Both the position numbers and the translations under genes were made by a program. From contig JAABRD010000004.1 of NCBI GenBank assembly GCA_011391085.1, forward strand, positions 62,001 through 126,000: a DNA stretch of 64,000 bases, read 5' to 3'. Shown in pieces: positions 28,332 to 31,500 of this stretch; the stretch's first letter is position 1; each line of letters opens with the position of its first letter. Source of the DNA: Thiotrichaceae bacterium (GTDB lineage: Bacteria > Pseudomonadota > Gammaproteobacteria > Beggiatoales > Beggiatoaceae). The notes beneath the pieces are model-generated. The model ran no database searches. It was given only the letters and a program-made list of their open reading frames with translations, and was not told the DNA's origin.

Positions 28332-28518
28332 ATAGTGTGCTGAAGTATCTCTAATGACCCTTCTTCTGGGCAAATACTTCACACATACAGAACGATTAAC
28401 CCCCACCTGAAATTCCCGAACCGGTTGGTGTCTCCTGTCTCCCTCTTCCCGAAAACCATCTGTCGGTTGACCATTCTCTCAAGCTTCTCAGACCAATCTA
28501 GCTTTACAGGAGAATTTT

Positions 28519-31500
28519 ATGAATTATCAAGAAGATATAACAGACAGACAGACAGACAGACAGACAGACAGACAGAGCTAAAATCGTGCCAACTGACCCG
28601 TTGGCGCATTCTACTTAGCTGTCTCCTACTCTTTACCACGTTTCCCGCCGTCGCGGCGACGATTGTCGTTAACTCCAATGCCGATACCACCGGCACCGCA
28701 GAAACTTGTACCTTGCGAGATGCGATTACAGCCGCCAATACCAATACGGTGGTAGCAGGTTGCACAGCGGGCAGTGGCGCGGCGAACACCATCACCTTTG
28801 CCACCAGCCTGTCAGGACAGACCATTACCCTGACTTTGGTCTTACCGCCACTGGCTGGCAACCTCACCATTGATGGCACTAGCCTAGCCTCTCACGTCCA
28901 AATCAGTGGATATGATGCCGTGGGGGTGTTCTTTATCACTACGGCAGGAACGGTGACTCTAACCCATCTGGACATTATCAAAGGAAGAAGCGGTATCCTT
29001 AATTATGGCACGTTGACGGTCAACAACAGTACCCTTTCGGGCAATTCCCACGGCATCGCTAATTATGGCACGTTGACGGTCAACAACAGTACCTTTTCAG
29101 GTAATTCCAATGGCGGCATCGTTAATTATTCTAATGCTGGCACGTTGACAGTCAACAACAGTACCTTTTCGGGCAATTACAGTGGTAGCGACATCTACAA
29201 TGAGAATAGCACTGGGAATGGCACGGTGACCGTCAACAACAGTACCTTTTCGGGCAATTACAGCAACGACAATATCTACAGTGGAAATGGCACGTTGACT
29301 GTCAACAACAGTATTCTGGCTAATAGTTGTTTGAATTATGGAACTTTTACTGGTCACCATAACTTAATTATGTGGAACAATGGCTGTGGCACACCAACCC
29401 TGACCGCGGACCCGAAGCTGGGTCCACTAGACAACTACGGCGGTAGCACTAAAACGCTGGCCCTGTTAGTGGGTAGCCCGGCCATTGACATGGGGGATGA
29501 TGCGACTTGTTTGACGACAGACCAAAATGGAGTCACGCGGCCACAAGGGGCGCATTGTGACCTGGGGGCGTTTGAAGGTTCTGTGTCAACCTACGCTTTT
29601 CATACCGCCATGGCAGGTACCGGCCTGGGTAACGTCACAGGGAGCACCGCGGAGGGTTCTTATAATGTGACTGGCACCCTCATTACTTTAGTCGCTACCC
29701 CAGATGCTGGTTCCACCTTCGCCGGTTGGACTCCTGCCAGTTGCGTCACGGGCATGACTTTGACCGCGAATACCACTTGCACCGCGATGTTTAATCTAAA
29801 TAATGTCGTCCCACTCACCGATGTCACTCAACTCTGGAACGGGAGGGCAACTTATCACAGTTGCGTTCTGACCAGCAGTGGCGGGGTGATATGCTGGGGT
29901 CAGAACCTTTATGGTCAACTGGGTGACAATTCCACCACGGACCGTTGGACACCCGTGGCGGTCACGGGCTTAACCAGTGATGTGATGGCCATTGCCACAG
30001 GCGGTGGACACACCTGTGCATTGACCAGTAGTGGCGGGGTGATATGCTGGGGCAACAACGCTTATGGTCAACTGGGTGACAACTCCATCACCGAACGTCA
30101 TACACCAGTAGCGGTGATAGGCTTAACCAGTGACGTGACGGCCATTGCGGCAGGAGGTTCTTACACCTGCGCGTTGACTAGCAGTGGCGGAGTTAAATGC
30201 TGGGGCTACAACTCCTATGGTCAACTAGGTAACAACTCCACCACTAAGCGTTTGACACCTGTGGATGTCAGTGGCTTAACCAGTGGCGTGACCGCCATTG
30301 CTACGGGAAGTTCTCACTCCTGCGCGTTGACCAGCAGTGGCGGAGTCCTCTGTTGGGGTCTCAACAATTCTGGTCAACTGGGTGACAACTCCACCACTAA
30401 CCGTTTGATACCGGTGGCGGTCACAGGCTTAACCAGTGACGTGACGGCCATTGCCGCGGGCGGTTATCACACCTGTGCATTAACCAGCAGTGGGGGGGTT
30501 CTATGCTGGGGTAGCAATGGCTATGGTCAACTGGGTGACTATTCCACCACGAATAGTTTGACACCGGTGGCGGTCACAGGCTTAACCAGTGGCGTGACGG
30601 CCATTGCCGCGGGCGGTTATCACACCTGTGCATTAACCAGCAGTGGTGAGGTCCTATGCTGGGGTTACAACTCTTCTGGTCAACTGGGTAACAATTCCAC
30701 CTATAACAGTTTTATACCGGTCACGGTCACGGGCTTAACCAGTGACGTGACGGCCATCGCGACGGGTTTTAGACGCACCTGTGCATTGACCAGCAGTGGT
30801 GAGGTCCAATGCTGGGGCGACAACCTTTATGGTCAACTGGGTGACAACACCATCCTTGACCGTTGGATACCAGTGGAGGTTTTGGTAAATGTGAATGATG
30901 TGCCACCTACCACTATTAAAAATAACCAAACCATTAGCTTCACGCCACCTGCAAGTGGAACGTATGGCGGTAGTGCAACCTTGACGGCAACGGCCACCTC
31001 TGGTTTAACCGTCACCTTTGCCAGCACGACCACCAGTGTCTGCGCGGTCAGCGGCACAACGGTTAATTATGTTGGGGTAGGCACATGTACTCTCACCGCC
31101 TATCGGGCTGGCAATATCAATTACAATGCGGCACCACCCGTCAGTGGGAGTCTTACGGTTGGGAAAGCCACGCAAACGATTCGTTTCACTCCACCGGCCA
31201 GTGGCACCATAGGAGGCAGTGCAGTATTGACGGCGACGGCCACCTCTGGATTAACCGTCACGTTTGCCAGCACGACCACCGGGATTTGCACGTTCAGCGG
31301 GAGTATCGTGAGTTATGTCAGTGCGGGAACGTGTATCCTCACTGCCAATCAAGCAGGTAATGTCAATTACCAGGCGGCACCCCAGATCACAGGGAGTCTC
31401 ACCCTCTACGCCCCTGCCTACGTCCCACTTACCGGTGTCACCCAACTCTGGAAAGGGGGTCTATCTAATCACAGTTGCGTCCTGACCGGCAGTGGCGGAG

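Follow-up and report, generated by a model that had tools for sequence, protein, structure and literature searches.

A shared tetranucleotide-repeat cassette predicted to switch unlike secreted proteins ON and OFF in two Beggiatoaceae genomes

Why does a start codon with a strong ribosome site, placed just before a very large secreted-protein gene, lead through nine ACAG units into a stop codon? The locus lies in a 64,000-nucleotide stretch of a Beggiatoaceae genome (the window). The initial annotation reported nine ACAG units, an ATG at 28519 preceded by AGGAG, a stop at 28579, and a signal peptide and body in another frame, and proposed phase variation. All of these elements can be read directly in the sequence. 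The features of the locus are as follows.

28380 to 28518, + strand: upstream module of the cassette (promoter/5′ UTR region), shared with other members by DNA similarity
28508 to 28512, + strand: Shine-Dalgarno AGGAG, read off the sequence
28519 to 28539, + strand: 21-nt leader ATGAATTATCAAGAAGATATA, its length retained in 13 of 14 homologues
28519 to 28581, + strand: OFF-state leader ORF MNYQEDITDRQTDRQTDRQS with its stop, starting at ATG 28519, from ORF rebuilding
28540 to 28575, + strand: (ACAG)9 tetranucleotide tract, the proposed switch
28575 to 28658, + strand: putative signal peptide in the body frame (ELKSCQLTRWRILLSCLLLFTTFPAVAA), from translation and the hydropathy peak ILLSCLLLFTTF
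28577 to 28592, + strand: conserved post-tract motif GCTAAAATCGTGCCAA
28659 to 35252, + strand: secreted-protein body, stop codon included, with CSLREA, choice-of-anchor Q, RCC1 repeats, MBG_2, and InlB B-repeats

The tract consists of perfect, non-triplet units with one extra A (TRF: 9.2 copies, 100 percent) and lies in the 5′ part of an ORF, beginning 21 nt from the first base of the ATG. The leader frame closes at TAA 28579-28581. The body frame is open from 28425 to 35252 (2,275 codons) with no internal stop, in agreement with the earlier statement that the gene body has no frameshift. Domain matches confirm both parts of the proposed RCC1/CSLREA identity; the CSLREA match is to TIGR04214, with 27.7 bits against a cut-off of 25. 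The product has a signal-peptide-like segment, CSLREA, choice-of-anchor Q, and InlB B-repeats; it may be exported and take part in surface variation. We identified no promoter elements within the upstream module (28380 to 28518), and a search for structured RNA gave only sub-threshold miRNA-type noise.

We rebuilt the ORF for 3 to 14 units. A long ORF of 2,237 to 2,249 aa appears only with 4, 7, 10, or 13 units. With the nine units present in the window, ATG 28519 opens a 20-aa peptide, an OFF state. The expectation that one unit gained or two lost would join the start to the signal peptide was borne out by the rebuilt ORFs (fused at 10 and 7), as was the prediction of ON at 7, 10, or 13 units, to which four units can be added.

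The cassette locus is a member of a multi-gene family. We compared the genome of the window (G000) with that of a congener, Thiomargarita sp. SulCav_PC08_66_44_25 (G001), one genome per species, combining a pattern search with a DNA search among relatives and searches with two sequence profiles. The first relative, found by the pattern search, was a second G000 locus whose leader is nearly identical and is followed by five ACAG units. In total there are 14 homologous leaders, five in G000 and nine in G001 (best E 2.7e-25). Across both genomes, these 14 copies define a cassette of ribosome site, ATG, leader, tetranucleotide tract, and GCnAAAnTCGTGCCAA. The copies are listed below by genome and contig.

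G000:C85 (window): ACAG x9, OFF, RCC1
G000:C64: ACAG x5, OFF, delta-60 and cadherin-like
G000:C52: ACAG x4, OFF, reverse transcriptase and InlB repeats
G000:C56: degenerate ACCC tract, with a separate ATG for the gene further downstream
G000:C62: two CCAG units, in frame, 570 aa
G001:C36a: ACAG x5, OFF, RCC1, runs of N in the contig
G001:C36b: long tract absent, in frame, 301 codons
G001:C397: ACCA x10, ON, ORF of 910 aa encoding a signal peptide and leucine-rich repeats
G001:C77: ACCA x5, OFF, RCC1
G001:C400: ACCA x5, OFF, ORF reaching the contig end, ATG downstream of the tract
G001:C392: ACCA x8, G8 domains, OFF from the first ATG, with a body-frame ATG 13 nt after the leader ATG
G001:C74: broken body
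G001:C354: CCAG x3, OFF, reverse transcriptase
G001:C446: ACCA x2, in frame, 1,149 aa

The tracts are chiefly ACAG or ACCA, and no CCAG arrays of at least four units were found. Among the copies with at least five units, C397 is ON and the other six are OFF from the leader ATG. Nearly all homologous leaders have a GGAG- or AGGA-like motif 5′ of the ATG. The upstream module matches stretches 5′ of several other G000 and G001 members at 79-91 percent identity, and despite this the DNA around it is mostly unlike between members. The N-terminal parts behind the cassette differ among the secreted proteins (RCC1, leucine-rich, delta-60, G8). Every exact match to the degenerate post-tract motif in the two genomes is a family member. 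We rejected this motif as a family-wide DNA element, as the copies examined in other genera lie mostly within unrelated coding sequence. The leader pattern occurs in 23 stretches across named genomes, two of which are Thiomargarita sp. SulCav contigs; the rest, in scattered phyla, were as a group taken as chance. The leader had no match in phages, plasmids, or viral contigs. An orthologue of the window gene beside ligA in G001 was considered and rejected for lack of synteny.

The genes of C52 (L105:3279-7019) and C354 (L114:4687-8589) each encode, in one frame of a long ORF, a leader remnant, RVT_1, a second signal-like segment, InlB B-repeats, and a shared C-terminal domain. This domain, of about 140 residues and ending KLSGVKLGKDVKLEKGVVVE, is common to ORFs in L104, L105, L112, L114, and L115. 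The one copy tested has no sequence match among solved structures.

The distance from the leader to TCGTGCC is divisible by four in 13 of the 14 copies (44, 28, 28, 24, 16, 28, 32, 48, 28, 28, 40, 20, and 16). The exception, with a distance of 19, is C74, the copy with the broken body. There are eight distinct lengths, which fall in all three classes modulo 3. Lengths in multiples of four bases spread over three frames are as predicted by slippage of four-base units, with the comparison being between paralogues, not alleles. The chance that 12 of the 13 others match the first copy is about 6e-7 (calculated by hand assuming independence, which the copies do not fully have). The in-frame copies use all three frames of the post-tract motif, reading KSCQ (C397), AKVVPT (C446), and KVRANW (C36b). 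In-frame copies number four of 14, near the fraction expected by chance were the body translated from some other start. Four copies have just five units, and these tracts are possibly too short for frequent slippage.

We surveyed arrays of at least five ACMR units in 43 genomes of the family (G000, G001, and 41 others). The family search spanned 25 genera, in line with the number that PMC11172852 gives for Beggiatoaceae. There are two arrays in G000 and seven in G001; one of the seven is imperfect and apparently intergenic, and one follows an ATG immediately, on the opposite strand. The 41 other genomes have a single array, which is imperfect. Such arrays are thus nearly confined to the genus, which argues that the window array is not due to chance. 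At G001:C211 (L116:5732-5980), (TCTG)6 sits right behind an ATG and opens an 82-aa ORF. Further tandem arrays in the window are 30-bp AGTGGAT-type units around the topA end (26709-26813), a 16-bp unit x5 (35323-35402), and a 12-bp unit x11.5 (49595-49732).

Could translation of the body begin elsewhere in the body frame, at TTG 28425, GTG 28428, TTG 28467, or an unusual codon, so that the leader ORF has no role or is a small upstream ORF? The window gives room for this, as 178 nt of open body frame with TTG and GTG codons precede the ATG, and the additional ATGs of C392, C400, and C56 also fit such a scheme. The TTG and GTG codons of the window have no ribosome site by eye, however, and the elements that are conserved are the strong ribosome site and the leader ATG. 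Nor is the openness kept. C36a and C64 have a stop directly before the tract that closes the body frame, with no ATG, GTG, or TTG from there to the hydrophobic core of the signal peptide; in both, the first canonical codon is met only within the signal peptide or after it. In C77, canonical starts are absent between the upstream stop and the signal peptide. Because these three copies lack a canonical body-frame start upstream of the signal peptide, they argue against TTG 28425 or GTG 28428, and we consider an alternative start very unlikely. CTG as an unusual start behind the tract was rejected by eye for lack of conservation, and programmed frameshifting was rejected since different copies would require different directions.

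A different objection is that the loci once varied and are now fixed, with relic tracts, decaying OFF copies, and no further switching. The tracts of only 2 to 5 units in several copies, the broken C74, and the degenerate C56 are all as expected of relics. Against decay, the bodies of the window gene, C64, and C392 are long and uninterrupted, and tracts of 8, 9, and 10 units have stayed perfect. The ratio dN/dS is 0.17 between the RCC1 part of the window gene and that of C77, both OFF, which bears out the earlier claim that the body is under selection while OFF. It is 0.12-0.24 in the C-terminal domain common to C64, C52, C354, C392, and C446 (OFF and ON copies), with 0.16 for C64 versus C392. 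Higher values in other pairs, which are more divergent or less surely aligned stretches (window versus C36a, 0.36; window versus C392, 0.33; C400 versus C392, 0.40; C64 versus C446, 0.85), make selection less clear along some body segments. These ratios show purifying selection on predicted OFF bodies, most clearly for the window gene and C77, and a family of fixed relics is very unlikely. Still less credible is an assembly error in the nine-unit count, with a true allele constantly in frame. The genome is a draft and a repeat consensus may err, but the 37 bp tract is shorter than usual reads, and out-of-frame loci with 5 and 8 units occur elsewhere, including in another assembly.

The window thus very probably holds a translational ON/OFF contingency locus that belongs to a family. 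The phase-variation proposal is strengthened by the 13 further leaders, the whole-unit length differences in three frames, the ON copy with a long tract, and the selection on OFF bodies. We predict that translation begins at ATG 28519 and runs through a hydrophilic tract of TDRQ repeats, which has no stop in any frame. Whole ACAG units would be gained or lost through slipped-strand mispairing. Unit numbers of 1 mod 3 (7, 10, 13) would fuse the start to the signal peptide and give a secreted product about 2,245 aa long; any other number would yield no more than a 20- to 35-aa peptide, with no export. The present copy, with nine units, would be OFF. ACAG or ACCA tracts of at least five units also precede six other genes in the two genomes, so cells within one population would differ in the surface proteins they display. 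The anatomy and the comparison between copies make this prediction of repeat-slippage-driven translational contingency loci well supported, and we infer that slippage occurs in living populations. The wider proposal has about even chances in our view: a portable promoter-leader-microsatellite cassette (ACAG/ACCA) that spread within one Beggiatoaceae genus onto unlike secreted proteins, giving combinatorial variation of the surface in a bacterium for which life in a host is not known.

Repeat-driven contingency genes are known mainly from host-living bacteria and are usually explained by host life. A contingency family in sulfur-mat bacteria would suggest pressures of another kind, such as phage, grazers, or attachment. 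The Opa proteins of Neisseria are a multi-gene surface family with CTCTT repeats in the signal-peptide coding region, each copy switching independently. The Beggiatoaceae genes are similar in forming a multi-gene family with a repeat in the signal-peptide region. They differ in that the Opa repeat is a pentanucleotide and the Opa proteins are all homologous outer-membrane barrels, whereas the family described here comprises modular secreted proteins with different bodies. The start codons of C392 in two frames recall the lic genes of Haemophilus influenzae.

Tetranucleotide contingency loci of H. influenzae include lgtC (GACA), lic genes (CAAT), and haemoglobin-binding proteins (CCAA) (PMC2651432). 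Their tracts lie at or just after the start codon, the repeat peptides are hydrophilic and uncharged, and frame shifts turn the genes ON or OFF (PMC2651432). The Beggiatoaceae tracts share this placement, type of repeat peptide, and (as predicted) mode of switching, and their units are identical by rotation (ACAG to GACA, ACCA to CCAA). The shared units suggest a convergent choice of units whose peptides are hydrophilic and harmless whichever frame is read. Unlike in H. influenzae, one 5′ cassette is shared in front of N-terminally unlike proteins, and Beggiatoaceae are not known as host-associated. Marine Beggiatoaceae have TAACTGA direct repeats, for which phase variation was discussed as a role (PMC4679880). 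They resemble the present tracts in being short, tandem, and from the same bacterial family, but they are heptamers in intergenic DNA with a proposed regulatory function, not tetranucleotides within a reading frame. Phase variation in Thiomargarita has been suggested in general terms (PMC4853749). In the open-access literature we found no description of a Beggiatoaceae or Thiomargarita locus of the ACAG/ACCA in-frame type.

Variable C-terminal segments of the type ...GGSW/GGAW... occur in genes on L147-L152 and L154-L156 from several family genomes, including G000:C120 and C75, and these genes look like hypervariable FGE/lectin-fold proteins. In the window, a GmrSD-like gene adjoins a HEPN-domain gene (38082-39981), possibly a defence pair.
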